DNA of 64,000 nt from positions 35,967,501 to 36,031,500 of the forward strand of contig NC_091966.1 of the NCBI RefSeq assembly GCF_036711975.1. The letters are read 5' to 3'. The position numbers were made by a program, and so were the translations under genes. This document shows, piece by piece, positions 1 through 63,434 of the stretch (positions are counted from its first letter, which is position 1; the number at the start of each line of letters is the position of its first letter). This DNA is from Onthophagus taurus. Taxonomy: Eukaryota; Arthropoda; Insecta; Coleoptera; Scarabaeidae. The notes beneath the pieces were generated by a model, which was given only the letters and a program-made list of their open reading frames with translations, was not told the origin of the DNA and did no database searches.

Positions 1-958
1 ATTAACCCTTCTACTAAAACTTTCTTTACATGTTAAAAGGTTTTCTTGGCTACTATTTCTGCATGCATTTCTTATCCGCTCTTTCATGTTTTCTGTCGTA
101 GTCGGGACTTCGCGATAAACATTATCCTTAAGGACGCCCCATAAAAAAAAATACAAGAGGTGCCAGGAAATTGGACCTCCCTTCCAATCCATCGCCCAGC
201 ATAATCCCGATCTAAAACTTCACGTGCAATATATGAAAAATGTGCTGGACACCCATCATTTTGCAGCCACATATTTTGTCTTTCTTCCCCGCTCAAATCT
301 ACAAGTAAAATTGGTAAGACTTCAGCTAAAAAAATTCGGTACTTCTCTCCATTCAGCATACCATCAATAAAGTATGGACCGATCAATTTCTCACCAATTA
401 TGCCACACCAAATATTAACCGACCAAGGTCGTTGATGTTCTACTTCACGCAATCATCTCAGATTTTCAATGCTCCAATAGTGCGTCTTATGTCTATTGAC
501 TTGTCCTTTGTTTGTAAAAGTAGATTCATCCGAGAATAGCACGTTACCAAAGAAATTGACGTCCAACTGCATTCGTTCTTGTGCCCATTGACAAAATATT
601 AATCGATTTAAAAGTCACCTCTATAAAGCTTTTGATGCAATAAAATGTAATATGAGTGATACTTGTTGCGCTTTAATATTCTTAAAATGCTGGTCTTCGA
701 TATTCCGGCGTCAATTGCAAGTCGTCGAGTGCTAACTTGAGGATTTACCTCAACGCTAGCTAATACCGCTTTTCTTCCATAGTTACAGTTGGCCGAGTTC
801 TTTTTCTTGATTCTACATTTCCAGTGTTAACGACTCGAAGGCGTATTTTGATCAGAAAAACGTTCTCGATACAAAGCTATACTATCAGCAACTTTTCTGC
901 CACTTTCTCCATAAATAAAAATCATTTCTAGTTTTTCTGCCATACTGAGAGTATCCAT
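1..958 (-). mobile_element. Tc1/mariner-superfamily transposase remnant
   Basis: Read on the - strand, a transposase starts near 958 with MAEKLEMIFIYGESGRK, the N-terminal helix-turn-helix region common in insect mariner-like transposases. It continues through FSDES (first catalytic Asp), a long open stretch at 84-452 with WSVNIWCGIIGEKLIGPYF, and QNDGCPAH (second catalytic Asp). The last part, YFFLWGVLKDNVYREV, lies in another frame, so there is at least one frameshift near position 150, besides an in-frame stop near 455 and breaks in the N-terminal third. The 3' end runs off the window and no terminal inverted repeat is visible. It is an inactive DNA transposon copy. Confidence 0.85.
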
Positions 959-2318: not shown

Positions 2319-4438
2319 ATGTCTTTGCCTACAAAAAGCAGTCGTTATGGTATAATTTCCGGTGCGAATCTGGGTGTAATTCCGGATATACGGGGAGGAG
2401 TAGGTTTAAGATTTTTTAATTCAATGGCTAGAAATGGAGATAAACTGCATCATGTCTGTCCCAAAAAAATAATTAAATCTTTTATACTGAAAATTAGCTA
2501 CTTTTTAGTTTTTTCTTGTAGATGGAAGCAACGATGGGCGATACTGAAACGAAAGGGATGGTTCGATCTAAAGCTATTCGTGTGGCAACTTTATTAAGAA
2601 ATCGAGGAATTGAAGAAGGAAATATTATTGTAATTTCTAGTAAAAATCATTTGGATCAAACAGTTGCGTTGTTGGCTTGTTGGTTTCTCGGTGCGATAGT
2701 AGCACCTCTTCACTCTGATTATGATTACGAAGATTTAAAACACGCCGTTAGAATGTTACAGCCAAAAGTTGCTTTTTGTGGAAACAAATCTTCTATATTG
2801 CTACACAGGATAATGCTGGACATAAATGTTAAATGTACGATTATAACTTTTAATGAGGAAAGTAAACAATTTCCTACGTTTAAGAAATGTTGCGAATTAT
2901 ATAAGGAAGATCCTAATTTCGAAGTGGCTTATATAAGCGAACCCTCAAAACAACCAGCAATTATTATTACCACTTTGGGCACGGAAACCAATTGTAAATT
3001 AGTCGCCGTCTCCCATTATAATTTAATATTACGGTATAGCCGTTTAATTCCAAGATTTAACAAATCGGAAAAACTACTTTCATTCTTTCCGTTGAGTTGT
3101 ACCATGCATATTTTGGCTTCATGTCTTTGTTTCGATACAACAGTACGATTGATTTACTTTAAACATTTCACCGAGAAAAGTATTTGTAAACATATTCAAC
3201 ATTTAAAAGTCGAACATATGTTTATCGATGGAGAATTGGTTGTTAAAGTGGTTGCGAACGCTCCTCTTCTGGTAAATGTATTATAAAATTCATTAACCCT
3301 TTACCACACTTTAATATTAATGAGAAGTTATTATTCATAAAACACGTTTTTATTGATTAAAATTATCTAAAATTAAGTAAAAAGAGACAATGTTGCCGGC
3401 AATTTTTTCCACTTTCCACAAATCTCAAAAATGGCTAATTAATTAAATTTAATGTTAACATTAACCTTTCAAAATTTATATTATTTCTTTAAAATATTTT
3501 GTGCGTTAAAGGGAGATAAATGTAAGATTTAGTTTTTCAACTGTGCAGGATTATGATTTGACTAGTTTGAAAACGATCTTCGTAGCTGGTATGCCATTAT
3601 CGACGACGAATTACGCAAAGGTTTGCAGGACGTTTCGTGGGGTTGATGTGAACACGACTTATCAAACAATCGAAACAGGGATGATGACCGAAATAGGTCA
3701 AGAAGTGTTCAGTTTTAACAAACAAAAAGTTCTTTCAGTTGGAAAATTATATCCCGGCCTTAAAATTAAAATCCTTGATATTAGAACGAAACAAGTTTTA
3801 GGGGCTGAGCAATCAGGAGAGATTTATGTTAAAGGTGCTGCCATCATGTTGGGGTACTTAAAAATTTTAATTCTTGGTCTGTTTTAAATTTTTAAAATTA
3901 TTATAGATATTATAGAGATCCTTTAGCTACCAGTAAAGCTTTTGTAAAAGGTTTTTACAAAACTGGAGATGTTGGTTCATATGATACAGATGGATATGTT
4001 TATATTAAAGGAAGATTAAGCGATCATGTATATCGAAGTGGCTTCTTATTTGGTCTTCAAGATATCGAGGAAGTCCTTAAATTAAACCAATCCGTTTCTG
4101 AAGTTGTATGTATAGAAACCTTTGGTGCTATTATTGCATGTGTGATTAAAAAACTTGGACACGAAATTAAGGCAATTACTTTATTAGAGTAATAATTAAT
4201 GATTTGTTTTGTTATAATGTTAATTCTTAAATATTGTTATAATTAAAGTTTTGTCTACGATGTCTTACCACCTTATAAAATACCATCGAGAGTAATATTT
4301 CAAGATTATTTCCCCAAAACGGTCCTAGGAGTTAATCGAAAGAATATCATTAAAGAGAACATTACAAAAATTCTTCTAGAAGAGTCTCTTATGAAGGATG
4401 ATTCACTTAGAGATGATAAAAGATCAATGGAATCTTGA
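2319..4438 (+). CDS. gene A: luciferase-like adenylate-forming enzyme homologue, probable pseudoenzyme
   Basis: Five exons can be joined in frame: 2319-2453, 2522-3271, 3549-3853, 3907-4188 and 4249-4438, giving 553 residues. The fold is that of the ANL superfamily (acyl-CoA synthetase, firefly luciferase): there is a TGD motif in FYKTGDVGSYDTDGYVY and a C-terminal subdomain ending PYKIPSRVIFQDYFPKTVLG. Key residues have changed. The A3 loop, usually SSGTTGLPKG, reads TTLGTETNCKL. The YGxTE motif reads TYQTIE. The catalytic lysine after PKxxxG is Val. The frame is intact over five exons with good splice sites, so this is not an ordinary pseudogene; I infer a non-catalytic protein kept by selection. 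Its first intron sits where E and H also have one, and its last intron matches the only intron of gene B, its closest relative. The C-terminus lacks a peroxisomal tripeptide. Confidence 0.85.
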
Positions 4439-4538
4439 GTATTATTTTTTATGTAAAAAAAATTGTAAATGTTAATTATGTCAAATAAAAACAATAAAAT
4501 TGTTAGTTTTTAAATAAAAATTTAAAAAATCCCGCCAC

Positions 4539-4545
4539 TATAAAA
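4539..4545 (+). promoter_or_regulatory. candidate TATA box of gene B
   Basis: TATAAAA preceded by GC-richer CCCGCCAC lies 109 bp before the ATG of gene B and 100 bp after the stop of gene A. A TCAAT initiator-like site follows at 4575. This suggests that B has its own promoter in the short gap. Confidence 0.4.
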
Positions 4546-4653
4546 CAAGTCTGTCACCTCAGACTTCTTTAATGTCAATACTGTCACTTAAACATTTCCT
4601 CCTAAAATGTAAAATCTTCAGTTATAAATATCCTTTCTTAATTTAATGTGAAA

Positions 4654-7600
4654 ATGGCAGCCGAACCGGCTAATAAATTAGAAAGTCTTCCAACAATAAC
4701 ATCCGCAAGTGGGCCACCTTTAACAATACCAGAAATAACAACAGGTCTTGGTACAAGATTTTATGAATCCCTGGAAAAGTATAAAGATCAAATTCATTGT
4801 GTGGACTCATCAACTGGAGCGACAGAAACTAAAAATTCAGTAAAAATGCGGGCTATAAAAGTTGCCAAAGAATTAATAAAAAATGGTGTTGGTCAAAATG
4901 ACGTGGTTATAGTCGCAAGTAAAGTTCACATGGATTTAATAGTATGCGTTTTAGGGTGTCTTTTTGTTGGCGCAATAGTGGCACCCGTACATTCAGATCA
5001 TCCTCACGAAGAATTAAAACAATTAGTTATAATTCTGCAACCAAAATTTGCATTTTGCGGAAGTCGCTGTTCGAGATTATTAATGCCAATTTTAAAAGAG
5101 GAACGAATTAATTGTCCCATTTACACCTTTGAATCCGATAGCAGAGATTTTATCAGTTTCGATAAATGTTTAGAAAACCCAGATGATCCAAGCTTTAAAG
5201 CTGCCACAATTCTCAATCCAAAATCGACAGTAGCTTTCATTTCTTACACCCAAGGAACCGAAAGCGATCAAAAAATGGTTGCAATCAGTCATTACGCCAT
5301 CGCAATGAGATATATGTCTATGTTAGATTGGGCTTTTAAAAAAAGTGAGAAAGTCGTTTCAACATTCCCAATGAATAACATCACAATGATTCTTGTTATG
5401 TGTATTTGTTTTGATTCGCCGGCGAAGCATGTTATATTAGGTTCAATAACTGAACGGGCAATTTTAAAAGTTTTACACGATCTAAGGGTGGAAGTTTTAT
5501 ATATTGATTCCGATTTAGCGATTCGAATTTGCAAAAACACGGCCGTCGGTGACTTCGATTTATCCAACTTAAAAATGATCTTCCTTACAAACGCAATATT
5601 GACTAAAAACTACGTTCGAGTTGTACGAAGTTTTCGAACCTTAACGGTAGCAATCGATTATGGTACCGTTGAATCCGGAATGGTCGCATACGCAACCCAA
5701 CAAACATATTTACAACACCACGATAAACTCAATTCAATCGGCCAATTAATGCCGGGAGTTAGTGTTAAAATTTTACCACCCCAAAATGGGGTTGCACCAC
5801 CCGGATGGGGCGAACTCCACGTCAGATCGCCTTGTTTAATGTTAAGTTATTACAACAATCACGTTCCGACAAAACCGATAAGCAAAGGATATTTTATAAC
5901 CGGAGATTTAGCAAAAATCGATTCTGATGGGTTTTTATATATTCGGGGAAGGTGTAGCGATGAAATTATAAGAGAAGATAATGTTTTTTCAACGGCCGAA
6001 GTTGATAATGCCATCTTAATACATCCCGATATTGAAGAAGTTGCTGCTTTTGAAAATGAAGATGGCGATTTAATCGCGTGCGTAGTGAGAAAGGAGGGAA
6101 GAGATGTTTCTCAAGCATCTATTTTAAAGTATGTGAATTTTTAATTATATTATTCTTAAGTTAGTAAAACTAAACTCTATAAACAACTTTGTTATTAAAT
6201 TTGTTAACCGTTTTGATTCATTACGGTTTCTAAGTTAAAGTATATACTTTTGCTTTAATGTGGTTGTATGGAAAGTAACACATAGCGGATGTGTCCCCTT
6301 CTTGAAATCAGCCATAAATATCGTCAATAGATAGATAAATTTTCTTTATTGTGTTGTTATTATGTTTTAAAACTACAGCAAAAAGTACGGATTTCATACG
6401 AAAATCTAGGCTAAAAAAGAAAAGCATCATAAAAATACAATACAATTAGGAGCTGACTATCTACAGCAAGTAAAAAATAAAAGTTGCAAGATGTTACAAC
6501 AAAAAGCGCACGATTACTAACTATGGTAATGCCATCGGCAAGCTTTCCAAGTCTTCAAAATTGTTTATCAGATATCCATTAATGTTATAGAACCTTTTAA
6601 ATCCAAGGTTTTAAACTGCTTAGCATCAAGGGCCCCGATACGCACGCGCAGCACATTGAACAGCTTGGCAGTCAGAATATATAATTATACAGAACAGTCA
6701 GAATATTCAATTCAGAGAATTTGGTTCTGCAGCATTTGACAAAGCGCAAACCAGTGATAACTCTCAAGCATCTCCTTTGCATTCGAATAGTCTGGGCAGA
6801 GTAAGCAGAGTAACCTCAACATAGAATGGCATAGGATACCTGTGGGTAGAAATACCCGTAATAACTGATTATCAAAGTGTCAAGGGTACTATATTTATCA
6901 GATTTGTTATTGCAAAAATGAGAATGAACAACTATGCTTAAGATGAACGCTGCAAGGCAGATCAAGAACTCTGCAAAGTACAATCCACTTTTCCTAGTAA
7001 TCTTATGTGAGATCAAATTCATGAAGATAAGTTCTCAACAAGTTCAATTCTTTATAATTAAGAAAAAGGTCCGAACTATTCGTACGTTTTGAGCCATTTC
7101 CTTAAATAAGAATTCGCCAATATTCCTGGAATTCGAAGATATTGTCACAAGGTCTTGGAAATGAAAGAAACCTCGGAATCTGTATCAATGAGGCTTTGAA
7201 TGGTGACATAATCACGATAAGAATGTATTCATTGTATCAGTGCGTTGTAATCCTTGAAGTACCCTTACTCATAGTGTTCTTTGCCTTCACGTGATATTGT
7301 CAAACAACAATTTAACATTCTAATCTTACGGGCAGCAATAACTACTACTCGTAGAATCTGCTCACAACGTTAACATCATTAAAGATAGACAAGAATGACC
7401 AATTATCTTACAAAATTTCCATTCCGGGAAAAATCACCTGACCACTGTCTAAAAACTGCAAGAAGGATATTTATTATGCAAGTGTGTTAACGCACAAAGG
7501 ACATTGTCCATCATCGTAAAGCCTAACAAATTTTTCAAAATCAAGTCAAGCAATCTGTCGTTGACATTGAAGCAATAATTACACTGAATGAAACTCTACA

Positions 7601-9982
7601 GAAAATTTTATCGAAGTATTTTTTGAACAGCCAGACCATTGAACAATCCAAAACAATTCAGTAATTTTTACATGACCCCAACGATCAGCATTCAATTACA
7701 ACAATTTTCTTCGTATCACGGTCAACACCCAGAGTATCAAAATAGAGTTTTTAGAGTATCACAGAGTATCACAACCAGAAGACACTTTTAGTTAGCACAG
7801 TTTTTGCAGTGTACGATTATGGGCTATCTGGTTGTGTCGCTTATTTCAACAATATACCATCGGATGTAATGCTCTATAGGAGAAATAACTAAATAAATCT
7901 TCTTCGTCTTATAAAGCTGTGTTTGCTTCTTCCTTTTTATTAGTTTATTATAAGCATCATATACTTATGATATCTTCTTCTTAAAGTGCCAATCCCTCAC
8001 GTTCTTTACACACGAACACTGTCTCCTGCCCTGATCTCTTCTACCCCTCAACTTTCCCTTCCATTATAAGGCTTAGAAATTCGTATCTACTGCCTCTTTT
8101 AATGTGATCCAGGTAGCTTGTCTTTCGTCTCTTGATAATTGTAAGAATTTCTCTATCTACATTCATTCTTCTTAGTACCGTTTTATTGGTAATGTGTTCC
8201 GTCCATGATAGTTAATACTAGTCAATACTTTAAGCATTCTGCACGTTACCCATATTTCAAAGGCTTCTAGTCGTCACATCGAGTGACTCTCATCGTGCAA
8301 GATTCAGTCCCATACAAAAGAATTGAATAAACATATGCTTTCACAAATCTATATCTTCATTCTGGTTGCTGGCAGGTTCCGATGGCAAAACAATGACATT
8401 TCCTCACAACATTCAGAACATCTAATAGAGCTAGCTATCAGTTTCATCTGATAATTGAGGAAAACACCCCGAACTAAGGTCAATTAGCCTTAGTCTATAT
8501 TCTGCAGTGATGACCAACAACACTTATAACATCTCCAGCAAACCTTCAAATATTTGCAACTACATAACTATAGGAATTGTTTGCAGAGCTTTGTTTCCGC
8601 TGATACCGATATGCTGACTGATTTCAAACCAATAAGCTGACAAACTGATGACAGTAAAAGACGACATAACGGCGGTACTCTACCAGGAATCTGGGTTAAT
8701 AATTGTATTATTTCTTAGTACCAGATTAACAAAAATAGATGGAAAATACCACGCTAAAGATTGCCTCTCGCTTATTAAAGTCCCAAATCTTGCAAAATAT
8801 ATGATTTTGCATTTTCATGCCAGGCATCAAAAGAAATGTTGCGATCTATCAACGGTATATTTGAGTTGGATGCTTATACGTTAGCTGCAGATACTGAAAG
8901 CAGCAAAATTAGTTGCCCGTCTAGAAAAAATTATTAGAGAGGATGGCTACACACCTGACCAGATTTTTAATGTTGATAGAACAAGTTTGTTTTGGAAGAA
9001 AATGCCTGCAAGAACATTTACAGCTAAAGAAGATGCTGCTCTCATACAGACCACGAATGTTTTCAAAGAAGAATTAGACGGAAACAAGGTGACAGAGCGA
9101 GGTCGACTTTTCTCACTTATATAGTGAAAGTTGCTATAACAGAATTTTCAATGTTTTTCACGAGCTGGATATTGCTGTAACTTCAACTGTGTATTTTCAA
9201 AAGAAGTTAATAATAATATTACAATTTACCTTTAAAAAGTTTTCAAAATCGGTAAGTGCAAAACTATTAAAATCAATCACTTGCACATGCAAGATGTGCA
9301 GCATGCTCGTTGAAGTGGTGTATTCATCGAAACTAAAGCTATAAAGTAGTTATCTCGAGTCACCAGTTGAAGTTACGTAATAAACTGAATATGAAAGCGT
9401 GCCACATTAAGGATGAACGAAATATATATGACAAATTATTTAACTCTAATTGAATTAATTTAATCGTTAACATCAACTACGAGCTTTGTGAAGTCTTTAC
9501 ATGCCCATACCCTGATATTTACTAAGTCTTGAAAGTCATAATAATAGTCAAGTGCGCTGAAAGACATAAATTAATATTGTAAAGCTCGTTTGATATAGTA
9601 ATGGCAGCTATCGAATTGGGATCATCTGCTTTATTCGATCAAGAACAACTGATTTTGCACACTTTTTATTTTTCTTTTTTCACAATTTCGCCATAAGTGG
9701 ATTTAAAATAAAATTTAAGCAGTGAATCGAAAACGCTCTAAATTTTTTTGATACACAAATATTCATTAACTATAATATATATTAATTTTTCTTATATATT
9801 TTTTTATTTTTTGTAGGGTGGTAGCAGAAATTCTTCCAAAGTACAAAATTCCTACTAAAATTATTTTTAAAACTGGTTTACCAAAAACATTATTGGGAAC
9901 GATCAAAAAATATAAATTGAAGGAATCTATGGTTGAACTTATCAGGGAGGAATCATTTTATCATGCAGATGTTGATGATTAA
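4654..9982 (+). CDS. gene B: luciferase-like adenylate-forming enzyme homologue, probable pseudoenzyme
   Basis: The gene has two exons, 4654-6128 and 9817-9982, separated by a 3.7-kb intron. The donor is TTTTAAA|GTATGT and the acceptor TTTTTTGTAG|GGTGG; the joined product has 546 residues. The ATG at 4654 is in good context (GAAAATGG). It aligns along its length with gene A. The A3 motif is reduced to TQGTESDQKM. The YGxTE position reads YGTVE, TGD is kept (FITGDLAKIDSDGFLYIRG), and the final PKTLLGTIKKY has Thr where catalytic enzymes have Lys. As in A, the frame is clean and the loss is confined to catalytic positions, so a non-enzymatic role is inferred. The last exon is easy to miss: reading through the donor gives a false 496-residue protein that lacks the C-terminal hinge end. 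The intron holds a LINE and a Tigger-like remnant. Confidence 0.87.
6170..7970. other. intron DNA without recognised content
   Basis: First half of the long intron of gene B. It is AT-rich with only short open frames. I see no coding similarity, tandem array or inverted repeat here. Confidence 0.5.
7975..8330 (-). mobile_element. LINE fragment, 3' end of reverse transcriptase ORF
   Basis: On the - strand, 8160-8060 reads WTEHITNKTVLRRMNVDRE, then LTIIKRRKTSYLDHI and LIMEGKVEG. This is the well-conserved C-terminal end of insect endonuclease-reverse transcriptase ORFs. An upstream piece, RLEAFEIWVTCRML, lies in another frame, so the copy is frameshifted as well as 5' truncated. It lies in the intron of gene B, antisense to it. 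Confidence 0.8.
8780..9125 (+). mobile_element. Tigger/pogo-like transposase fragment
   Basis: From 8900 the + strand reads AAKLVARLEKIIREDGYTP followed by QIFNVDRTSLFWKKMPART. This matches the Tigger/jerky transposase region around NADETGLFWKKMP. The catalytic Asp is present but the following residues are changed (DRTS for DETG). A short upstream piece, LAADTES, matches the preceding helix-turn-helix end in a different frame. Only this middle part remains. Confidence 0.75.
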
Positions 9983-10409: not shown

Positions 10410-12201
10410 ATGAACAACTCGAAAAAATCTAACGACAATTTAATTTTAAGAAAAAATAATGAAGTTTACGGATTTCCGTTCAAAAAAGAAATTGGACAAA
10501 AGAGTTACGGTTATTTCGTGTATGAAAAAATGATTCAAAATAAAGATAAAATTTTTCAAATCGATGGGTTAACGGGAGAAAGTGAAACTTACGGAAATTT
10601 GTTAACACGGTGTAAAAGAGTGGCACTGGAAATGATAAATCGAGGGGTAACAGAAAAAGACGTCGTACTTCTTTGTAGTCAAAACACTTTAGATGCGATC
10701 GTCCCAGTTTTTTCAACTCAATTTATAAATACAACTTTGTGCAGTGTCGATCCATCTCAATCCGTTAAAGAAGTTGCTTATCTTTTAAATTTAGCTAAAC
10801 CCAAAATGGGATTTATCGAAAAAGAATCCGTAAATTTAATAAAGGATGCTTTAGAAATAAATGGTTTGAATATGGAAATTATTGTTATGATTCATGATGA
10901 TGATAAGAATTCTCTTGGATATTTTTTAAAACCTAAAATTGGAGAAGACGATTTTAAACCGAAAGTTATAAAAGATTCTAAAATAGCAGGTTTTATGTTT
11001 TTTAGCAGTGGAACTACAGGATTGCCAAAAGGAATTCTTTATTCCGGATGTGCAGTTTTAAATAATAATTTGAGTATTATGTAGAAAATAATTATTTAAT
11101 TTTTAATTAATTTTTGAAAGAACTTTTTTTTTGTAGTCATTTCGGTATTGAAGCTAAAGTTGCAAGCCATTTATCCACATTTTATTGGGTATCAGCATTA
11201 GTATTAACAACAATGGTACTACTTAATGACGGCATGAAGGTTGTTATTCCAACTAGAGATACAAGAGTTTTTGCAAAAGCTATGAGTGATTATAAAGTAA
11301 TTCTAAAATATTTTCATAAAAACAATCATTGATTTTAATTTTGCATTCTAGGTTACTTTCGCTTTTACATCTTATACATTTGCAGTTGGATTAAATGAAA
11401 CCATCACAAATGATTTAAATTTTAATCATCTTGAGTACTTAGTTCTTGGTGGTTCAATAGTTCCCGAAAATCACCTCATAAAATGCAGAAAACTTCTCCC
11501 TAAAACACTAGTTTTAGTGTCTTATGGTCAAACTGAAGCTGGACACATTTCCAGTTTTACAAAAGAAACTTATCATTTTGCTTTGCAAAAACTTTCAAGT
11601 GTTGGTCAACCAATTCCTGGAACAATCATAAAGGTGCTAAAAATTCTTATAATTTTTCCTTCATCATTTTATTATTAATCTATTTTAGATCGCCGATCCA
11701 GATACTGAAGAACCTCTTGGAATCAACCAAAAGGGTGAAATTTGTATAAAAACCAATTGGCATTTCAGCGGTTATCACAATGCGGATAGTTCTAACGTTT
11801 TTGATAAATCCGGTTATCTCAAAACGGGAGATTTGGGATATTTCGATGAAGATAACTGTTTGTACGTTAGTGATCGATTAAAAGAAACATTTAAATTTCA
11901 AGGTTGGCACGTTAGTCCGGCTGCAATTGAAGAAGTTCTTCTTAAACATTCGGCTATTAAAGAAGGAGTTGTCATCGGTATTCCACATCCGTTAGATGAA
12001 ACTCATGCTTTAGCCGTAGTAGTTCTTAAAGAAGGTTGTGAAGACGTTAGAGAAGAAGAAATTGTTCAGTTTGTTAATGAAAGAGTTTCGGATAGGGAGA
12101 AATTAAGATCCGGAGTGAAATTTTTAAACGAGTTACCAAAAGCTCCGTCTGGAAAAATTATGAAGAGAATAATTAGAGAGAAGTTTGTAGTGGTACAATA
12201 A
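10410..12201 (+). CDS. gene C: luciferase-like acyl-CoA synthetase / 4-coumarate-CoA-ligase-like enzyme
   Basis: Four exons, 10410-11080, 11137-11296, 11352-11633 and 11689-12201, encode 541 residues. Adenylate-forming enzymes activate a carboxylate with ATP to an acyl-AMP and pass it to CoA. The core motifs are present: A3 SSGTTGLPKG near residue 205, YGQTE, TGDLGYFDEDN, DRLKETFKFQGWHVSP (the hinge and A8 region), and LPKAPSGKIMKR with the catalytic lysine. It therefore looks catalytically competent. The substrate cannot be told; fatty or aromatic acids are usual in the family. The C-terminus is VVVQ, not an SKL-type peroxisomal signal, so a cytosolic place is likely. Gene D, 2.3 kb downstream, is a recent duplicate with the same exon lengths in the first three exons. 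Confidence 0.93.
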
Positions 12202-30403: not shown

Positions 30404-33400
30404 TCAATTTTTCTTCGGATTTAATTTTATCACTTCTAATAATTTTCTTCTACATTCATATCGTTGTATTTTTCCCGTTGCAGAATATGGTATAAAATCT
30501 TTATCAACAACCCAAACACCACCACGAATCTTTCTTGTTTCATCAACTCTTTCATTAACAAATTTTTCCAAATCTCCCCCCTCAACATTATCACCGTCTT
30601 TTAAAACAACAGCTCCAACGGGATGATCCCCATCTTCATCATGAGGAACTCCAGTAACAAAAACGTTTTCAACTGAAGGATGGTTACCCAAAATCCCTTC
30701 CAAATAATGCGGAGATATAGCCCATGATTTATAACGAATCATTTCTTTGATGCGATCGACGAAATAAAAAAAATAATCGTCGTCGTAATATAAAACATCG
30801 CCAGTCTTTAACCAACCGTTTTCATCGTAAATGTGTGAAGAATCGGTTTTAAAATAACCGTTCATTTCAAATTTGGTTTTGACTAAAAGATGGCCTGGTT
30901 TGTTTGGACCGAGTGTTTCACCGGTATTTATATCGACTATTTTATACGTTATCCCTTTCATAGGTCTTCCAACACTAAATCCTTTTTTGTTATAATAATC
31001 AGGATATTTCCCCCAATCAAAATTTGTTAAAAATCCACCAACCTCGCTTTGACCATAAGCCGAAACTATGATTACATTTGGCAGCATTTTTTTCAATTGT
31101 CCAACAAATCCTTTAGACAACGGACTTCCAATGTAACGAAGCGTTTGAATAAATGATAAATCTAATTCTTTGGGTACACCCACTTTTAATAATTGGGTTA
31201 TACAAGAAACTGACAAAACTAAATTGCGGATGTTGTACTTTGAAATAGTGTTAAAAAAACTATTCGGGTCGAATTTTGGCAAAATTAATCGGGAGTATCC
31301 AAAATTTATTGAACGACATATGTTAATTGATGCTGCTAACCATAATAATGGAGAGTATGATATTATGGTTGTGTTTGTTTCAGATGCGTATCTAAAAAAA
31401 ATAAATTAAGTTTAAAAATACAACCAATAACAACGTCATTGAGGTTACTGCTTCATAAGAAAAAAGAATGTTCTACAAACTTTAGATTACATAACAACAA
31501 TATTGGAAAAAGTTGGCAACAATTTTCACTTCAGAAGGTTTTAGTAGATAAATAATATTGTCCGCATTAAAAATCTTTTAGGCACAGTTTGGTCAAGGTT
31601 GCGCAACGCGACATTTAGGTATATGTCCAACATTCAGTGTTCATTGAACGATGCGATAAGACGATGCGAAGAGAAATATCTATAAGTACAAATTTTCATG
31701 CCCAGTAAAAAGTTGTGCTACTAGCAGAAGACTAGATACCGCTATTGGCAGAGTAGGCACTGCTAATAGGAGACCAGCTACTGCTTGCAAAAATGTAAAT
31801 ATTGGCAATGAAGATTAGACACTGCTAATAAAAGGCCAGATATTGCTGGCAGAGGACTAGATCCTGCTAGAAGAGAACTACGTGTTGCTAATGGAAGACT
31901 AAATTCGGCAAATAGAATATTAGACATTGCTTGAAAAATAGTAAATAATGTTAATAGAGAAACTCGACGTAAAAGACAAGATACTGCTTGCAGAAGACTA
32001 TATATTGCTAATGGAAGGCTAAATAATGCTAATAGAAGACTAATAGAGTAAAGTGGGGAAATATGCCGCGCTGGGCAAAACGCCGCAATTGAGTAAGTTT
32101 CGTCTAAATCGCCACTAAATGTCGGTGTTAGCACCAAAACGTTAATGATACGTGGCAAGCACGTGTATATTATTTACAAAGCAAATAAATCAACTTTTTA
32201 GTAGGTAACGTCAGTATAAAGGTAAGTACCCTTAAGAATCTTCTTATGTGAAGTTATATGTAGCGATGAAAGCAGTTCTAAATCTTTTTGGTCTAATTTG
32301 AATAGGGATATGCCAAAGTATAGGACTCATAACCTATCTAATAAAAAAATAAAAAAATCTAATAAAATAGTTTTATTTCAACAAGAATCGCATGTTGCCA
32401 TATTGATATTACCCAACTGCAAGGGGAATATAGCAATTTGAGTTTTCCTGTTAATTTAATTCCTATTGAATCTACAGTCAATTTAGCCTGGAGAGATGAT
32501 CTACTGCATTTGCCTAAAAGCCTAACGAATGGGTTGTAAGCATTGTTTTATCACAGCGTGTACAGGGTATGAAGTTATAGACGACCAAGTCTATAGAAGT
32601 CTAAATACTGGTTATAGAAGACTAATTACCCCTTGCAGAATACCAGATACTGTTGGCAGAAAATTATTTGCTCCTTACAGGAGACTAGAACCTGCTAACA
32701 GAACACTAAATATTGCTAATAGCAAAACAGACATTGTTAATAAAAGACTAGAAGTGTTCCTGGCACCGATTATCTTGTTTGTGAGCTTACCACATACTTT
32801 TCCTAACAAGCCATAACATTATATCACTCAGCCTCATTTCAACGAATATTGTTATAAATTTTCTACTGCGTTGTTGAATTCCTGTCCCCTCTTTTTAATT
32901 GCCATTCTTCCATAAATATATGGTAAGTCATTTGTTGAATTTTGAAAGGTTGCTGCTTCTACAAAGTAATTTAATTTCATCAACCCTCATATACATTTGG
33001 TATTGCGACTGAATCGAACCAACACTTCCTGGAATAGAATACCGATCTCTCTGGGCGATCCATTAATTGTTTCTATAGTCGTTCTGTACTAATTAAAGTT
33101 AACGCCTTGAAAAGTATAAAGATAGGGTTTTGCCTATTTAGGACTCAGAATTCAGGGTTCCTATAATCATTTATACATTCTCAAATCTAATCTATCTCAA
33201 CTAAATTGTTCTAAGACTTATCTCGCAGATTATGAAGATCCTCCTCCTCTATTTACCCTATCTAATTTGCTAAATACACCTTTAAGGTGTGTTTCTACGT
33301 GTGTACGTTAAAGGACCTTACTCTCTCTAATGTTGTTGGGGTTCATCAATATTAGGTATATGATGGCATCACGACAGTTTAAAATTAAGGATCTTGAGAC

Positions 33401-35829
33401 CATAATGGAATAAACTTTGAAAAAATCTTATTGGATTGTATTGGATGAACATCACGCCGCCACAGACCATAAATTTGACTTTGCGAACCCAACCGTTCTT
33501 TGTACTGAAGCCCTTTGAATGATTCGAAAAGGAATTGCAAGAAAACTGTATGTCTCATCGACTTACCACGTTGTTAAAAATTAGTGCATGGTACTCGGCT
33601 ACTTTAACAATAAACAATTCTGCACCGGACGTACAGCTAATAGACGACTACTGCTTGCAAAAACTAGATAATCCTAATAAAAACTAGACACTACTAATTA
33701 AATCCCAGATACTGCAAGCAGAGGACTAGATACTGCTAGCTGAGGAATACGTGTTATTAATGGAAGACTAAATACGGCTAATAGAAGAATAGATGCCGCT
33801 TATAGAATACTAAATACTCTTAACAGAGTACTACATGCTGCTGATAGAGGAGTGAACAATGTTAATAGAAGACTAGGTATTACTTGTAGACTACCTACTG
33901 CTTCCAGAATAGTCAATACTGGTTATAGAAGACTACTTATTCTTCGCAGAAGACTAGATACTTCTAACAGAAAACTGATTACTCCGTACAAAAGACTAAA
34001 TACTGCCAATAGCAGAGTAGGCATTGCTAAGAGAAGACTTATCTATGGGATTCCAAAAATATACAAAGACGATTTGTTACTCCCCACTATGTTCTTATTC
34101 CGTTAGATATTGTCTCCCTCATCCCCAACATACCCTCTAATCTGTTTATAGAATGGCTGAAAGCTGATTAGAACTTAATTCAATCTCACACTGAAATCTC
34201 TCAGGGTCGTTGAGTATTACTGGAAATATGTAGGAAACAGGTTGGTATTAAGGGTGAATCAAATCGAATCATAATGTCCTCTTAAACTAATATGTAGAAA
34301 ATCGATCTATTCCTGACGACTCATTAATTTATTTTCTTGTTGTCCTGTACCAACTAAAGCTAACGCCTTAAAAGAAATGAAAAATAGAGTTTTGCGTATT
34401 TTGGACTTAGAATTCAGGGTTTCAACATTAATTCGTCATTAAAGTGGTTTCTTAAAAACTTTCAACCCAGATCCAGATCTAATTCATCTCAACAAAATTG
34501 GTCTATGACTCATCTTCCAGATTGCGAAGATGACGCAGGGGGTCATCTAGGTTTGTTAACCTTCCCTTTATACCGAATGTAATTGGTAGCTTGATTAAAA
34601 GTTTAAAAAGCTTAGCTGTTAAGTACATCTCTAAACCTACAAGAAGTGATTTAACCCAAGAATATTACAAGAATTCTTGGTAATGAATCAATTCCGATCT
34701 AAAGATTAAGAAAATGAAGTGACTCCTAGTAAATAATAGTCATTGGAAAAAGTCTCACTATAAGACAATGTATTTGGGATTGATTACATCTCATATACAA
34801 CAAATACAGCTTTGACCATTTCCCATTGTTTTTTGCTCTTAAAGATATCATAGCAATTAAAATGTCATCTAAACCTTCTTTATATTCATTAATTTATGTA
34901 TTATCAAATCTCTGAAAAGTTTGTAATTGCTTTTAATAAATCAAAAGGTATTCGTGTAACCCAAAATATTAAATATACGAAGATATTGTTGTATGTTAAC
35001 CACAGTTGATAGTGTTGCCTAACCAACAAGTTGTTTTATATATGTTTTATCTGTATTTAAAAGTAATCTTATTTAAAAATAACCTCAATGATCGATATAC
35101 AACAACAATACTTACGAAAATGAGTAGATGAAATTAAACAAACTTAAATGACTTATACATGCTGCTTTATGATTTCCTGTACTTCCCCCCGTTAAAGTTA
35201 TATATGCAGAATCCGAAAGACTTCCAACTTTATAAACTTCAAAATTTCTATCATCCATAGCGGAATCCAAAAATTCCTCAAAATTCATATTATTTTTACT
35301 TTTTCCAAAAACAATTATTTTAGATTTAATCCCCCATTCTTTAATTTTTGGTTCCAAAAATATCTCGGCTTCTTCCGAACAAAATATAATTTTCGATTGA
35401 AATTTATCAAGCAAACTTTTCATTTCATCCTGCGGCATGTGAAGATCTAAAGGAGCGCTAAGCGTTCCCGTGAATAAAGATGATATAAAAGGTATACAAG
35501 AATCAAGGTGATTGTGTGTTAATGGAGTTATTAAATCTCCCGGAAGAATACCAAGATTTAACATCGCTTTCGAAGTTTTTATACATTTTGAAAGGAGATC
35601 CTCGTATGTTTGAATTTCATCAGTTAATCCATCAATTTGAGCAATTTTTGATGAGTTATTTAACATTAAATTATAAAAATAATCTCCTAAACCATCAGGA
35701 TGATATTTCGCATCGTTATCGTGCGTTTTAATGATGTTATCTTCAACAGAAGAAATCGTTTCATCTAAAACTAATTAAAATTAATTTGTAGTTTTCATAA
35801 AGAATTATTTTCTTACTGTCTTTAATCAT
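30404..35829 (-). CDS. gene G: luciferase-like adenylate-forming enzyme with altered A3 motif
   Basis: Exons on the - strand, 35829-35817, 35764-35116 and 31391-30404, join to 549 residues. The first coding exon holds 13 nt (ATGATTAAAGACA). The donor TTTTC|GTAAGT and acceptor TTTTTTTAG|ATACG bound a 3.7-kb intron at the same phase-2 place that C, D, E, F and H use. Kept motifs: YGQSE, TGDVLYYDDDYFF, DRIKEMIRYKSW and YSATGKIQRYE with the lysine. The A3 loop reads TGGSTGNHKA in place of SSGTTGLPKG; it is still Gly/Thr-rich, so activity is uncertain. The intron carries three blocks of a 21-bp repeat and a possible Penelope-like trace. A TATA box stands about 70 bp upstream of the start. The tail PKKN is not a peroxisomal signal. 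Confidence 0.88.
31725..32050. repeat. degenerate 21-bp repeat, block 1
   Basis: Units close to ACTGCTAATAGAAGACTAGAT are repeated head to tail about 15 times with many substitutions and small indels. Because 21 is a multiple of three, frames stay open on both strands and give false heptad-repeat proteins. It is in the large intron of gene G. Confidence 0.8.
32575..32755. repeat. degenerate 21-bp repeat, block 2
   Basis: The same family as block 1 (for example ACTGGTTATAGAAGACTAAT and CCTGCTAACAGAACACTAAAT), about eight units. It is followed by sequence that resembles the sequence after block 3, so blocks 2 and 3 with their flanks look like a duplication about 1.25 kb apart. Confidence 0.75.
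33635..34045. repeat. degenerate 21-bp repeat, block 3
   Basis: About 19 units of the same family (for example ACTGCTAGCTGAGGAATACG and GCTAATAGAAGAATAGATGC). It is the longest block. A short frame across it reads as a heptad series with RRLDT-like units, an effect of the 21-bp period. Confidence 0.8.
34046..34560 (+). mobile_element. possible Penelope-like retroelement trace
   Basis: Right after block 3 the + strand reads YGIPKIYKDD, resembling the YGLPKIHK start of Penelope-type reverse transcriptases. Next, in other frames, come LDIVSLIPNIPS and WNLIQSHTEISQGR, which resemble the following conserved stretch. Sequence at 32.76-33.25 kb is a diverged copy (shared CAACTAAAGcTAACGCCTTaAAAG). 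The match is short and broken, so the family call is tentative. Confidence 0.35.
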
Positions 35830-51796: not shown

Positions 51797-54700
51797 ATGG
51801 AACTTAAAGCAATAGTCTTAATGATAGTGAAAATAGTAATTTCGATTCCCACGTTAGCCGTTATGGTTCAAAGGGTGGAATCCGCAACATTAATGGGTGG
51901 CCATTTGGATAATGGAAGTAAAAGTAACAATTTTACTAATTTGTTGCTCGAAGAAATTGATCAAACGGCACTCGCAGATAATGTAAATTGAATTAAATTT
52001 TTTATTTATTAATTTATTTAATTGATTTCTTTTAGCACAAAAATTATAAAACAACGGAAACGCCTCCATATAACGCAGAAACGATTCCAGATCCCTCACC
52101 GTTAGTTGTTCCGGGTTATAATCTTCCAGATAATTTATTTAATAAAGGAAAACCGTTTTATTTAGAAAAGAACCCAGAAACAGGCGAATTAGATTTTCCA
52201 ATAAAACCGCAAGATGAAGACAACCAAGATGAATACGAATATTACGATGAAAATCCAAATACAGATATTTTTGATAAATCAAATATTGATAGAAAAGATG
52301 GAAACATTGCAAGTCATAAATACAACGATGTAAATCAATTAACTCCGAATTTTCATGATTTTTTACCCATTAAATATAATCCAGAAAAATATGTTTATCC
52401 ATTAATTTCAAGTTCATATGCGAATACGAAAGTTCAAGGAAACGTTAATCGATTTCACAATCACAAAGATTACACCGTAACAACTTATAAACCAACAAAA
52501 ACTCCAACTTATCTTTCTACAAAATATTCTTATTATGGTATTGAAGAAAGAACAACAACCACCACAGAAAAACCAACGATGACTACAACCACGACCCCTA
52601 CAACTTCAAAAATAGCATCCTACACTACATCTTCTCCAACGACAACAGAAGATGTTTATTTAACGACGTCACAAAAGAATTTAATGAATAGCCCGATGAA
52701 TCATCCGAGTTTTCAAGAGGATTACTCAACGGAAAAGAAAGCAGTCGATGATATCTTTTTAACGACGACTAAAAGACCTTTAAGTATATTTGAACAATTT
52801 TTCGGATCATTCGATGATATTGAAACGACATCTAAGAAAATTGATGAAGATATTGATTATAATATTAACGGACACGCTGGTCCTTACAACCCAAACGTTT
52901 TAACCGGCTCAAATATGGCCCATTACGAATATGAATACGAAGACGGTGTCGCCGATAATATTGCAGTTGAAAATCAACCAATACTAACTCAAATTAAAAC
53001 AAACATTGAAACTACTAGCAAAGAAACGACAAAATTAATAACGGAAAAATCAACAACACCAAAAATAATAACATCAAAAGAAACTACAACTCCTTTAATG
53101 ACAACTCAAAAAATAACGACAACAACATCAACCACGACAAACACGCCTTTAACGACTACACCAATTACAACGACAACAACCACACAAAAAGCGAAGGTGG
53201 TGTCAAAAATTCCTGAATCAAACTCAAATTTAAACCCGACCCAAAAGAAAACATACATAAAGCCCACTACTTTACATCCTCCTTTTACACAAAAAGTAAC
53301 ATCAATGCCTTTAGGTGATTATTACAATAATCAACCGATTATTGTGGCCACACAAAACTTAAGGGATCAATTAAATAGCGAAAAAGTCCCAAAACCATTT
53401 GAATCCCCAAGAATTCCTCCCGCACCGAGTAGTTCAAATATAAGAATACCCGCCGATCAAAACACGGTTTCTTTCGTAATCGGAAATCAACAAAGTGTAG
53501 GAAATGAATACGCTGGTTTTAAAGAAAGTCCCTTTGATAATAAACCATTTAGACCGGTTTATTCCGATTATGGAGATACGGCAAGTTACCAAGTTCAAGC
53601 TAGTATTAATATGAAACCGCAACAAGGATACAATATAGGTGCAAGTTCGATTATGCATCCAATAAAAAATTCTGAAACTTCTTTAGCCATTGGTGTTCCA
53701 TTGGATATGATTCAAAAGAAACCGGGTCAAGTCGTTGATGATTCATTGGAAATTCATAACGCACAAATTGAGTTTCCCAAAGGAAACGGGCCGAAAATTG
53801 TATTTCCAGATGAAAGAAACGAAGAAAAAACACCATCGACTTTAAAACCGGAAGAAAACGAAAATGTTCAAATTAATTTTAAAACCACCGAAAGTCAAAA
53901 TACCCAAAATCAAGATCAAGATTTCAGAAATCAAGATTTGCAAAATTTTAAAACCGATTCGACTTCAACGACTGCCTTACCAAATAATAATAATAACATA
54001 AGAAAGCATTATAATAATATTCATCAAATTAATAGAGAAGTTCTAAAATTGAATTCTAAGCCAATGTTGCATCAACTTCCGAGTGATTTAACTCCGCCGA
54101 GTGAACCAGTTACTAGAATTCATTTGAATCGGGAAAGACCACCTTGGGATCCAAGACCTGGACATTTTCATTCTGGAAGGCCTGAATATGCTCGACCACC
54201 AAGACCGAATGACGTTTATAAAAGAATTGATAATCTTCCTAATATTCTTCCACAATTTAGACCTAATGTAAAACCACAACATTATTTTGATCATCATCCA
54301 GGAAAAGGTAAAATTTTTAATTTCTATAATAATGAAACTTCCATTACAAATATCTTCCTTTTCATATTATGAAGAACCCCAACTGTAGAAATTCTAACAA
54401 CCTTGAAATAGTATAACCCAACTCTATTAATAATTGAGGCAACCCCATAATGCTCTATTCATGTTGTTCCTATGCCGATGAATCTTTATGGCCTCTCTTG
54501 TCATCCCTTGGTAGTAATGTCTGGCTTTGGCTAGCACCTTAGTCCCTCCCTCTCTGTAGCAATACTCTGCGACTACCCGCTGCAGGATCTTATTTACTCG
54601 ATATTACGTCCAGATTTGCCAAAGTAATACTTCCCATAACTGCATGATAACCAATAAACACCCATTTAATTAAAAAACTAATTTCTTTTAGGATATCCAA

Positions 54701-56136
54701 GACAACCACTATTAGATAGACCATCTAATCGTCCAGTTGGATTTTTTGAAAAACTCCAACCACCGCCACCACCTAAACATCTCCATAACCTAAGAAAAAT
54801 CCCTCAACTTGAACAATCTTCACCATCACCACAACAATTACAACAACATCAACTTCACCAACAACTCCAACAGCAACTTCAACAACAACAGCAACTGCAA
54901 CAACACCAGCAACTTCAACAACATCAGCAACAACTTCAACAGCAGCAGCAACAATTTCAGCAACAACATTTGCAACACCAACAATTACAGCAACAGCAAG
55001 AAATAAAATCAAGAAATCCATTACCGATAGCTGAAGATCGTATAATGAATAAGAAAACAACTCCTGAGCAATACATGTTTTATCAAACACCCCCAAAAGT
55101 CGTTTTAGCACAAAGAAGAAATGGTGATCCTGATGTAGAAGTTGAAACACTTCAAATGATTCAAGCAAAACAAGAAAAATTAGAAAAATCAAAAGATGAA
55201 CCTGTAACCGCACCTTTAGATACATCCTTAGATTTAGATTTGGATAAAGAAAAACCGCTTTATGTAGTTTATCCCGTAAATGCCGCACCAGTAAAATTAG
55301 ATGATTTAGATATGAATAAAAAAGAAAGTGTTGTGATTGGAAAAAGAGCCGAATTACCTTTACCACCATCTCAAATTCAAGATTTTGATCAATCGGAATT
55401 TAGCGTGATTGAAAGGCATGAATCGCCGATTTTAAAACCGCATCCAAAACCGGGTTTTCCGAGTAAAACTGATTTTCCGTATCCTTTAGAAAGACCCGAT
55501 CCGTCTTTATTAAGTGCCCCAGATATCGGAAACAACATCGATAATTTACCTAAATTTGAAACGAACGATTGGGATACGATTGATGATGCTGAAGAGAGAG
55601 TGGTTAACTCAAAAAATCAACAAATTTCGGTTAAATTAAAAACTTATACGGAAAAACCGATTGCTGTGGCTTACACACCAACTGAACCGCATAGAACAGA
55701 AAAATATTCCGCTCCTAATTACGCAAGTCCCGTTATTCCGGAAATAAGAAACAGCGAAATTACAGTAAGCGCGGTGATGCATACGAATCCAAAAAATGAA
55801 CACGATGTTAATTTAAAAAGTCAAATTTACCATGATAAATATGTAACGAACCCGGATATAATAGAAGATGATACTCCTAATATTCCAAAATTAGATTTCC
55901 AGGCACCATTCCAAGCGAGTGTTAACGTCGATAGTATGGCTAGTAATGGATGGTCTGTTGTTCGTGATAGAAATAAACAGGAGGAAATTGAAACTACAAC
56001 CCAACCTATGATTACAACCAGCAAATTTGATATCGAAAACTTTAATCCACCTTTAATCGGCGGATTTAAACCGATTTATGATTTTCCTGATGATGATTCT
56101 GAAAAAGAAACTGAAATTAAAGAGAGGCAAGAATAA
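51797..56136 (+). CDS. secreted, cysteine-free, Thr-rich and polyQ-containing protein
   Basis: Coding exons 51797-51982, 52036-54307 and 54692-56136 give 1,300 residues. The leader begins at an acceptor (GTTACAG|GCTTC at 51786), so an upstream non-coding exon exists. Residues 1-30 form a signal peptide (LKAIVLMIVKIVISIPTLAV, likely cleaved after VESA). Then come an acidic Tyr/Asp/Glu-rich stretch, Thr-rich mucin-like blocks around 240-260 and 385-450 that suit O-glycosylation, a Pro/Arg-rich part around 770-840, a Gln-rich block around 865-925 at the start of the last exon, and an acidic C-terminus (YDFPDDDSEKE). I find no cysteine in the whole product and no folded domain that I recognise. 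It is probably an extracellular, disordered matrix or cuticle-surface protein, but the function is unknown. Confidence 0.85.
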
Positions 56137-60264: not shown

Positions 60265-62811
60265 TCAGTAATTTGTGAACAACTGTAAATCTAATTTAAC
60301 CGTTACTTCACCTGATTCAACTTGGTGTAAGATGAGCTTTTTTATTATTGGTCCATTGGTGTTTTGCGATTCTCTGTAAACTTCTTGTAATTTTAAATCA
60401 GCACGACCTAAGAAAACTAATAAAATTTTCTTTTTTAAAATTTACATATTCAAATCAAATTATAAATAAGGGGTAAACGTCTTGGAAAGATGTATAAGTT
60501 TTTATAAGAAACTTTCAAAATCACTCATTTATTCAGAGTCAATTAATACAGTGATGATTGCATAACTTTTGTTATATATTATTTTGGATCCTTTATCATT
60601 TCTGTGGCTTAAATTCCCTTCTACTCTGGTTGACCTCTTTATAAAATTCAAGTTCGAATTCAATACTTTCTTAAAATAAATCAGATGTAAGAGAAAATCA
60701 TCACATTTCAGTAATATGAATTAAAGTAAGTAAATCTCGATGCAACACAAAGAAAATGTAAATCCCTACACCTATTGCAGAAGGAGATATACAGACGTTA
60801 TTTTCTTGGAATAATATTTTTTTACTTTAGCCCTTTTAGAATCAAACCACAGAGAAAAAACTCGTTATGAATATAGACGTTTACCCCTTTATAAAAAAAT
60901 TTATATATATTTACCGTCTGGTTTAAATAAACACATCTCATAAACACAAAGACTGAGCACATCATCTTTAATACTAGCAACGTGAAATTGCATGCTTGAA
61001 TTCCACACTAAATTAGGAATTTGAGGATAACCATTTTGTGGTCCATTACCATTACTCAAATTATCTTTTGCGATATCAGTTTGTTGTTCTTGCTTTCCAA
61101 GAGATACTTTACAATAAATGTTTTCCGTAAATAATTTACCTAAGAAATTAAAATTTTTATTTAAAATGAATTCAATAAGGATTTTAAAAAAATTATTATT
61201 AAGCTGTAAATGGATTTTTAAAATTTTTTTTGATCACCTTTTCGCCAAGAAAATGAATTTCGATTGCGAGTCGTCCTACTATAAATTTCAGTTCCCTCAG
61301 CGATAATCACGTTGAGTAAATATCTAACGTCCACAGCTGAAATTGCATGCAAAACTTAACATTAGAACCTTACCTAAATGAATAAAACGTTTCCCCTTTT
61401 GAACAAGCACGAGCAGACGGCCGCACGATTGGCTTCCTGCACACAACAACAACAAACACTCAACAATAAGACAAAAAATTTTTTTCACACCACAATTTTA
61501 TGCACAAGGATGTAATTCTTAACTTAATTTAATTACTTACGTGAATAAGATGCAGGTTTTATAGAAGCCACAACACGTTCATATTCATCTTTAGCTTCTT
61601 CGATTCTTTTAATCCATAAGCTGCATTCGTTAACGCTTGGTGTTAAAAGAGCAATTATTTGTTTTTTGTTTTGTATTTTGAGCACTCGGTTCGAATCGGT
61701 TCCATGTTCCACAGATTCTGCACTACCTTTACTTGCTTTTAAAAATTGAATCATTATTGGCTAAAAAATATTGTGAAACAATTTTTTCTAAATATTTAGA
61801 AAGATATTAGATTACCTGTTTGTATAATTTAAATGTAATATTTGTGTTTGTAGGAAAAGTAAATTGTCCGCAAATTGATTTGCTTGGTTGTGCTAATAAT
61901 AAGAAATCGTTTAGGAGAAATCCAATAAGTTCTTTCCCACTTTTTACCTAAAAGAAATATATTTTTATATTTTATTTATTTTATAGGAAAGTTACTAACT
62001 TTAGTTAATAATCCATAATGTAAAAATTTTCTTTGCCCTAATTTATTTGTACAACTATTAAAATCAATATTCAAATCGCTTTGTATGAAATTTTTTAACC
62101 AATCGAGTCTTTCATGGTTTTCTTTGACGCGTACATTCTCATTAATTTGCCTTAAAAAATCTTCGGCTGCTTCTAAAGCTTGCCTGAGATAAATTGAATC
62201 TACGAAACATTATTAATTTCTTTTTAATTAAAACTTTAAACTAAATAATTACCTGCATGATTATCAGGAGTATTTTCTAATATTTTTATGATAAGTAATG
62301 GATATCTAGTAATTCTTTGCATCGGTTTAATCAAAAACGAACTTAATGGCATTCCTTTAGGATCCACCTCGTTTTGACATTGCTTGACAAGTTCACGAAA
62401 AGGCGAAGAAGTTTCAGTTAATTTTTGTAATAAAGCCGCGCTATCCAACTGTTTACTACAAAAAGTAATGTACGCAGTCATTTTTGGTAACTAAAATTTT
62501 CTTTTTTTAATAATAAAGAACATAATAAATAAAATTGTATTTCCATACATGAGCGCATATAACATCACCGATTATTTCACTTCCCGATCTTCTTCGTTGT
62601 TGCAAATCTTCCAAAAAATTCTTATTACATTGCAAAATATCTTGCCAATTTACAAATATCGCCTTGATATCATTTTTGTCGATAATCCCACTTCTTGTTA
62701 ATGGTATTTCAAATACGTTATGAACAACTTTCATATCTGCTATGTAAGCTTCTTCCGTTTGTATTAATTCGTTTATACAATCTTGTCTTTTTTTATCTGT
62801 AGGGCTTATTG
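60265..62811 (-). CDS. Dap160: intersectin (Dap160), C-terminal DH-PH-C2 part, 5' partial
   Basis: Eight - strand exons: 62811-62549, 62490-62253, 62199-62000, 61947-61816, 61760-61541, 61436-61374, 61139-60915 and 60416-60265, about 497 residues ending in TNY. Intersectin is an endocytic scaffold; its DH-PH unit is a guanine-nucleotide exchange factor for Cdc42-type GTPases. [107 protein letters not shown]2: [53 protein letters not shown]. The order and spacing match human ITSN1-long. The EH and SH3 domains should lie beyond 62.8 kb, partly off the window. The last intron has two AG sites 9 bp apart; the outer one restores FLGR and is preferred. The gene is convergent with the mucin-like gene. 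Confidence 0.93.
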
Positions 62812-63434
62812 CTGTTAGAAAGAAAGATAAAAATATTAAGTTAATAATGAAAATGTGGAAATCGAACGAGATCATTTTTTTTATTTTTATTAAATAATTT
62901 TGGACAACACATGATTTTTGTAGGCAAAAGAACATTCGTATTAATAGTCCAACTTTTGGTTGGAAGTGAGTTATGAGTCGAAAATGAGATGTGTTGATCC
63001 TGGTATAGTGAAAGAGATATGTATGGAGCTAACAAAGTTAGTACAACAAGAGCCGACATGAAGAGAGTATAAAGTCTTATGTTATTCGATGTTATCCCGA
63101 AAAAGTTAACAAGGAAGCTCAGGCAAAAAGAAACTAGTACACAAGCATTAACATTCGCAACCTCAAACCCTTTCCTCGTCTTCTGATAAGGCAGAACCGG
63201 TTTATGATATATTAAATTGTTAGATAGACCTGAATGTTTACTTAGTACAGATTAGTCTGAATAAGTGAAGCAAACTTTACTTTCTAAGATGCTGATTGGA
63301 GCTACAACATTAGAACCTATCATACTTCATTGAGAGACCCAACTGATTTCTTCTATACAAAAGATGATTTCACAGACTTTGTTTAAAATCCTAAGGAGCA
63401 ACTTAAGCATTTACATAAAGTAATCATAGAAACA
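62812..63434. other. intron of the intersectin gene
   Basis: A pyrimidine-rich acceptor (TTTCTTTCTAACAG) borders the exon at 62811. I find no further intersectin exon in this stretch or to the end of the window. Confidence 0.5.

Follow-up and report, generated by a model that had tools for sequence, protein, structure and literature searches.

Two adjacent probable pseudoenzymes of the ANL superfamily in the genome of the beetle Onthophagus taurus

The catalytic lysine is one of the five positions found to be invariant in a survey of 374 sequences of the class I adenylate-forming (ANL) superfamily (PMC6122825), and proteins in which the conserved catalytic motifs are missing, as judged by sequence, are defined as pseudoenzymes (PMC10211241). 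Here we describe two adjacent genes, A and B, which belong to this superfamily by descent, to judge from their sequences, and lack the lysine. They are located in a 64,000-nucleotide stretch of the Onthophagus taurus genome (hereafter the window; G000:C1:35967501-36031500, within the 290.8-Mb genome; positions are counted from its first letter). A and B are very probably conserved pseudoenzymes, and the explanation that, taken as a whole, fits the data best, and that we consider likely, is that of an ancient tandem pair of pseudoenzymes, with binding as a more tentative mode of action.

The closest described systems are luciferase-type proteins, namely Photinus pyralis (Ppy) luciferase, AncLamp (6k4c), the Zophobas protein (4w8o) and the fly protein CG6178 (7kyd), which have the same two-domain architecture and fold as A and B and are among their best solved-structure matches both by sequence and by structure, at about 20-25% identity. 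By sequence, the closest solved relatives are AncLamp and the beetle luciferases, joined by CG6178 in the case of A; for one paralogue, AncLamp and the beetle luciferases score above CG6178, whereas the tree groups the luciferases with CG6178. The P. pyralis luciferase, AncLamp and CG6178 keep the lysine (K529; Ppy numbering throughout), the A3 loop and T343 (Ser in CG6178), whereas A and B lack all of these as well as the peroxisomal signal. The luciferase-like clusters of fireflies (PMC11090084, PMC6191289) resemble the cluster that harbors A and B in consisting of tandem acyl-CoA synthetase (ACS) genes, some without the peroxisomal targeting signal 1 (PTS1), and the words lysine and K529 are absent from the main text of these articles (for PMC6191289, from its first 300,000 characters). 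A broken paralogue beside active relatives, as in A and B, is also known from trypanosomatid deoxyhypusine synthase (PMC3663545) and from FAM20A (PMC10211241), although these are members of other superfamilies. Amide bond synthetases with the A/B fold still crystallise when mutated to K483A (6h1b) or K492H (8pyx, with adenosine; 8ppp, with AMP-CPP). These are engineered single changes, whereas the loss in A and B is natural and spans multiple motifs. We take the mutated positions to be the equivalents of K529. No ACS pseudoenzyme is described in the literature searched (titles and the beginnings of abstracts, with most papers in subscription journals outside the scope), and no paper within that scope brings together pseudoenzymes, ACS, beetles and luciferase.

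Active-site residues lost and retained

Gene A (2319-4438, + strand) consists of five exons and encodes 553 amino acids, gene B (4654-9982, + strand) consists of two exons and encodes 546 amino acids, and only 215 bp separate the stop codon of A from the ATG of B. Neither gene contains internal stops or frameshifts, and all five introns are of the GT-AG type by spliced alignment, in agreement with an earlier note on this DNA that had reported full-length frames, correct splice sites and a retained TGD motif. The AMP-binding and AMP-binding_C domains span the whole length of both proteins, with Pfam scores of 146.7 and 25.9 bits, respectively, for A and 132 and 36.2 bits for B (cut-offs 29.9 and 24.5). 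Structure prediction, a check suggested in the same note, yields a confident luciferase-type fold for exon 1 of B (Table 1); 36 of 80 bacterial loci were used, solely as alignment rows for this prediction.

At the position of K529, A has Val and B has Thr, whereas Lys is present in all 36 other gene models of this genome; one of these carries it on a tail exon situated 4.4 kb downstream, within a stretch that was retrieved separately. The lysine loss in A and B is thus beyond chance. Also lost in both proteins are S198, S199, T202 (to Glu), G203, P205, G207, H245, T343, D436 (to Gly), K439 (to Ser), K443 and Q448, whereas G200, T201, K206, Y340, E344, G388, D422 and R437 are kept in both. Within the A3 loop (198-207), G200, T201 and K206 are the only matches to the relatives; in the YGxTE motif, Y340 and E344 remain, G341 is found in B only, and T343 is gone from both. 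The claim that the lysine, most of the A3 loop and part of YGxTE had been lost is borne out by this alignment to luciferase, and the decay, which extends to D436, K439, K443, H245 and Q448, exceeds what was first reported. Among the 39 relatives that were compared (the 36 gene models and three solved-structure rows), 26 have H245, 26 have Q448 and 28 have G207, and position 443 is occupied by Lys in 31, Arg in seven and Trp in one (Tyr in A and Ile in B), so that the losses at these four variable positions weigh less. K443 is the thioester (second half-reaction) lysine, and K439, the hinge of luciferase.

The five invariant positions of the superfamily (PMC6122825) are, by our own correspondence, E344, G388, D422, R437 and K529; four are kept in both A and B, and the fifth, K529, is lost in both. 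According to the same source, the equivalent of Tyr340 contacts adenine, that of Asp422 holds the ribose hydroxyls, that of Thr343 holds the alpha-phosphate, and the P-loop is the phosphate-binding site (PMC6122825). Judging from the aligned residues, the active site of A and B has preserved its adenosine side but lost most of the side that deals with phosphate, acyl and thioester. The features expected of a functional ACS (P-loop, K529 and K443) are missing or disrupted, as are those expected of a beetle luciferase or peroxisomal ACS (H245, T343, K529 and a C-terminal PTS1), and the absence of conserved catalytic motifs is what defines a pseudoenzyme at the sequence level. An SKL-type ending is present in none of 15 genes, namely A, B and the 13-gene clade described below; SKL or CKL is found in five paralogues on C7 and one on C3. 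There is good reason to infer that A and B would catalyse neither of the two half-reactions, adenylation and thioester formation; less firmly, the two proteins may be cytosolic and act by binding rather than by catalysis.

Origin of the pair and selective constraint

In the phylogenetic tree, A and B group together with support of 100/100, outside a clade of 13 genes (six from the window and seven from the C6 cluster), and A, B and this clade are separated from the rest with support of 97/96 (96/95 after correction of the gene models). The placement of A and B as a young offshoot nested with the six window genes was rejected by the approximately unbiased (AU) test (p 0.0003, initial model set). 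The branches are long, with 1.3 changes per site on the A/B stem and 0.7 and 0.9 on the tips, and the summed path from A to B amounts to 1.59 changes per site, compared with 1.56 from firefly luciferase to CG6178. By these sequence comparisons, A and B are an old, constrained pseudoenzyme lineage that is not nested among its neighbours in the window. Among the residues identical in A and B, 49 are found in at most two of the 39 relatives, and 31 of these, in none. Changes exclusive to A and B occur in catalytic motifs, including A3 (T202E), A8 (D436G, Y444R, V449F) and A10 (S527L), which indicates that the decay of these motifs began before the duplication; with all residues other than Lys at position 529 coded as one state, the loss maps to one change on the tree. 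H245 is kept by none of the 13 clade relatives (the C1 window cluster and C6:14.55-14.59 Mb), being replaced by Trp in 12 and by Ala in one.

The gene structure also points to common descent of A and B. A phase-2 intron common to both, located at profile position 448, is absent from the 33 other models (n = 35). The earlier note had claimed that no other paralogue has this late intron, which holds for the exact phase-2 position among the 35 models; however, 11 of the 33 others carry a phase-1 intron only 11 nt further downstream (position 452), so that a late intron as such is old and not peculiar to the pair. The first intron of A, too, is at an old position (Table 1). The tails of the two proteins run 18-26 residues beyond the last conserved block and have the letters EES in common.

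Of the 472 core columns, 179 (38%) hold the same residue in A and B. Over 535 aligned codons, the nonsynonymous divergence (dN) is 0.57 and the synonymous divergence (dS) is saturated; because of this saturation, their ratio (omega) is given here as rejected values rather than as a number. Relative to the best fit, an omega of 0.05 costs 3.8 units of log-likelihood (lnL), an omega of 0.3 costs 38.6, and an omega of 1.0 costs 120; in seven overlapping regions, the C-terminal domain and the last exon among them, omega = 1 costs from 10.5 to 99.5 lnL per region. In a simulation of neutral evolution with 0.1 changes per site, about eight stops appear per gene, and the frame stays open in at most 0.3% of 300 runs. 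The hallmarks of a decayed pseudogene (stops, frameshifts and omega near 1) are thus absent, and intact frames under purifying selection are what was found, as measured on the A-B pair only. The codon comparison, the simulation, the shared motif changes and the predicted fold of B exon 1 together argue for the earlier proposal of a fold that selection maintains although catalysis has been lost.

The distribution of A-B identity along the proteins was compared with that in 362 pairs of relatives that have diverged to a similar overall extent. An excess of identity around positions 97-136, the region of the A2 motif, is reached by none or one of the 362 pairs, depending on the window size, and a deficit around positions 432-481 (the hinge and the start of the C-terminal domain), by none; these counts are descriptive because the pairs share branches. 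A and B also have seven cysteines in common, six of which are found in at most two of the 36 relatives; four pairs of closer relatives likewise share seven.

Possible functions and alternative explanations

With the catalytic residues lost and the genes nevertheless kept intact by selection for a long time, A and B probably have a different, non-catalytic job. The derived changes that both share in the loop handling pyrophosphate, in the hinge motif A8 and in motif A10 show, by sequence comparison, that the active site had begun to decay before the duplication; thereafter the two copies became highly divergent while strong purifying selection acted on the whole protein. The adenosine half-site (Y340, D422 and R437, plus E344) is retained, most of the residues handling phosphate, acyl and thioester are gone, and the strongest constraint specific to A and B appears to have shifted to the segment around the A2 motif. 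As to mechanism, we can propose only tentatively that A and B work by binding; the leading candidate would be a regulator that binds an adenine nucleotide, acyl-adenylate or CoA and might form a pair with the other copy or with an active paralogue. The more specific notion that the pair, by virtue of the adenosine half-site, became a sensor of adenine nucleotides, acyl-AMP or CoA, or an allosteric subunit for the neighbouring active synthetases, is speculative, and we hold it with less confidence. A natural lineage that lost the catalytic lysine, duplicated and retained its fold under strong constraint would offer a clean test of which parts of the much-used ANL scaffold serve binding and which serve chemistry, and through it the idea of dead paralogues would reach the enzyme family that gave rise to beetle luciferase.

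Several observations weigh against the interpretation of A and B as old pseudoenzymes that function by binding. The retention of Y340, D422 and R437 may be structural and have nothing to do with a ligand, and B lacks G316, which A has. At the position of the lysine itself the copies differ (Val and Thr), which would fit either one loss or two, with only the neighbouring motif changes shared; alternatively, the lysine could have moved, B having KK two and three positions further along. The predicted structure covers B minus its last 55 residues, with A outside the prediction, and the excess of identity around 97-136 is at the edge of a null made of non-independent pairs. Finally, the evidence of constraint comes from a single pair within one genome and consists of sequence comparison.

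A doubtful but serious alternative is that A and B serve solely as protein partners of active paralogues (dimer subunits, activators or decoys), their nucleotide site being a relic. There is a precedent for activation by a dead paralogue, the 3000-fold activation of trypanosomatid deoxyhypusine synthase (PMC3663545), and further pairs of pseudoenzymes and enzymes are described in PMC10211241; moreover, the excess of A-B identity lies, in sequence, outside the lost phosphate loop, and the 13 sister-clade genes are located in the cluster of A and B plus one other. Yet Y340, E344, D422 and R437, which a pure scaffold would not need, are unchanged in both copies, and an interaction is so far a proposal. 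No result obtained here chooses between ligand sensing and pure partnering. That A and B are enzymes that catalyse some other chemistry or rely on a relocated catalytic lysine appears improbable: K206, E344, D422 and R437 are kept, there are lysines close to the lost one (G-T-I-K-K in B, G-V-N-R-K in A), and the seven shared cysteines, mostly rare among relatives, could be enlisted in favor of this, but one moved lysine would not restore a site that has also lost S199, T202, G203, P205, T343, K439 and K443, Lys at 531 or 532 occurs even in models that keep K529, and some pairs of closer relatives share as many cysteines.

Decaying pseudogenes that happen to be open are a far less probable explanation still. 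The lost motifs, the long branches and the repeat-inflated intron of B are compatible with it, but the absence of stops and frameshifts at saturated dS and the much worse fit of omega = 1 in every region tried argue strongly to the contrary. A very recent loss of function would agree with the data. Pairwise omega is an average and cannot demonstrate selection continuing today. An alternative last exon that restores the lysine, considered in the earlier note as a refuting case, is hardly credible: the B intron is long enough to conceal one, but a scan with a tail profile on both strands of 26 kb (from 10 kb upstream to window position 16000) found no lysine-bearing alternative last exon, its only matches being the tails of A, B and gene C, an active-looking paralogue at about window positions 10410-12201. 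A hidden exon within the B intron was likewise dismissed, with nothing there in the tail-profile scan; parts of this intron are dispersed repeats that match sites all over the genome.

Gene models and other features of the window

A spliced protein-to-genome aligner was written to model 35 genes of the luciferase/4-coumarate-CoA-ligase kind, A and B included; the model of B was built by hand. Three models in which exons of neighbouring genes were joined (C7_10981518, C2_5562941 and C2_5570091) were remodelled and three genes added, which brought the set to A and B plus 36 others. Repeating the tree and the counts of shared residues on the corrected set left the conclusions unchanged; the window scan, the pair ranking and the AU test refer to the initial set with the three joined models. 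The first profile comprised 30 sequences, without the low-scoring and C2 models, and among the 46 AMP-binding_C matches listed, 10 lie outside the models (on C11, C2 at 16.48 and 13.83 Mb, C3 at 11.46 Mb, C7 at 39.8 Mb, and C8).

Table 1. Features of genes A and B, in window coordinates
Feature	Position	Strand	Evidence or remark
A exon 1 (ATG at 2319)	2319..2453	+	donor GTCTGT; phase-0 intron position found in many other models too (own alignment)
A exon 2, bulk of N-terminal domain	2522..3271	+	Pfam AMP-binding E 3.9e-24; spliced alignment
A, about Ppy 97-136 (A2-motif region), excess A-B identity	2684..2803	+	coordinates hand-counted
A, degenerate A3/P-loop (Ppy 198-208)	2972..3004	+	motif table
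A exon 3, with Y340 and E344 equivalents; T343 to Ile	3549..3853	+	Pfam AMP-binding E 7.8e-14
A exon 4; TGD at 3962-3970; R437 kept; K439, K443 lost	3907..4188	+	spliced alignment, motif table
A intron, phase 2, A/B-specific, GTAATA...TTAAAG	4189..4248	+	
A last exon with stop; PKTVLG-V; Val (GTT, 4331-4333) at K529 position	4249..4438	+	
B exon 1, 491 codons plus 2 nt	4654..6128	+	Pfam AMP-binding E 2.4e-38; AlphaFold pLDDT 87.8, pTM 0.85
B, about Ppy 97-136 (A2-motif region), excess A-B identity	4963..5082	+	coordinates hand-counted
B, degenerate A3/P-loop (Ppy 198-208)	5248..5280	+	motif table; AlphaFold confidence falls here
B, conserved TGD (D422 equivalent)	5899..5907	+	motif table
B last intron, phase 2, position as in A, 3.7 kb	6129..9816	+	degenerate dispersed repeats at about 6368-6919, 7985-8356
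B last exon with stop; PKTLLG-T; Thr (ACG, 9899-9901) at K529 position	9817..9982	+	

A third diverged paralogue, C1_35997949m (window 30404-31405 and 35112-35771, - strand), has the longest end branch in the tree (1.1) and an altered A3 loop (GGSTGNHKAA, with P205 replaced by His) and keeps K529 and TGD; it ends about 50 bp from a + strand paralogue ending at 30352, in a tail to tail arrangement. In another paralogue, L013 (C6:14589643-14591169, + strand), K439 is replaced by Ser and K443 by Trp, SF replaces the usual PK in A10, and K529 is kept.

Contigs C1 and C3 have round sizes (44,240,000 and 30,320,000), perhaps a sign of binned scaffolding or of contigs that were cut; as regards telomere-type repeats, there is no TCAGG array, and TTAGG occurs at a single spot. 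Elsewhere in the window, frame pieces at 84-766 (- strand) resemble, by eye, a decayed transposase of the Tc1/mariner type (84-452 has no Pfam match), two low-complexity frames of 778 and 484 amino acids, rich in Thr/Pro and Gln, are found at 52036-54372 and 54682-56136 (+ strand; no Pfam match above the cut-off), and an exon encoding a RhoGEF domain is located at 62507-63028 (- strand; Pfam E 2.9e-17).

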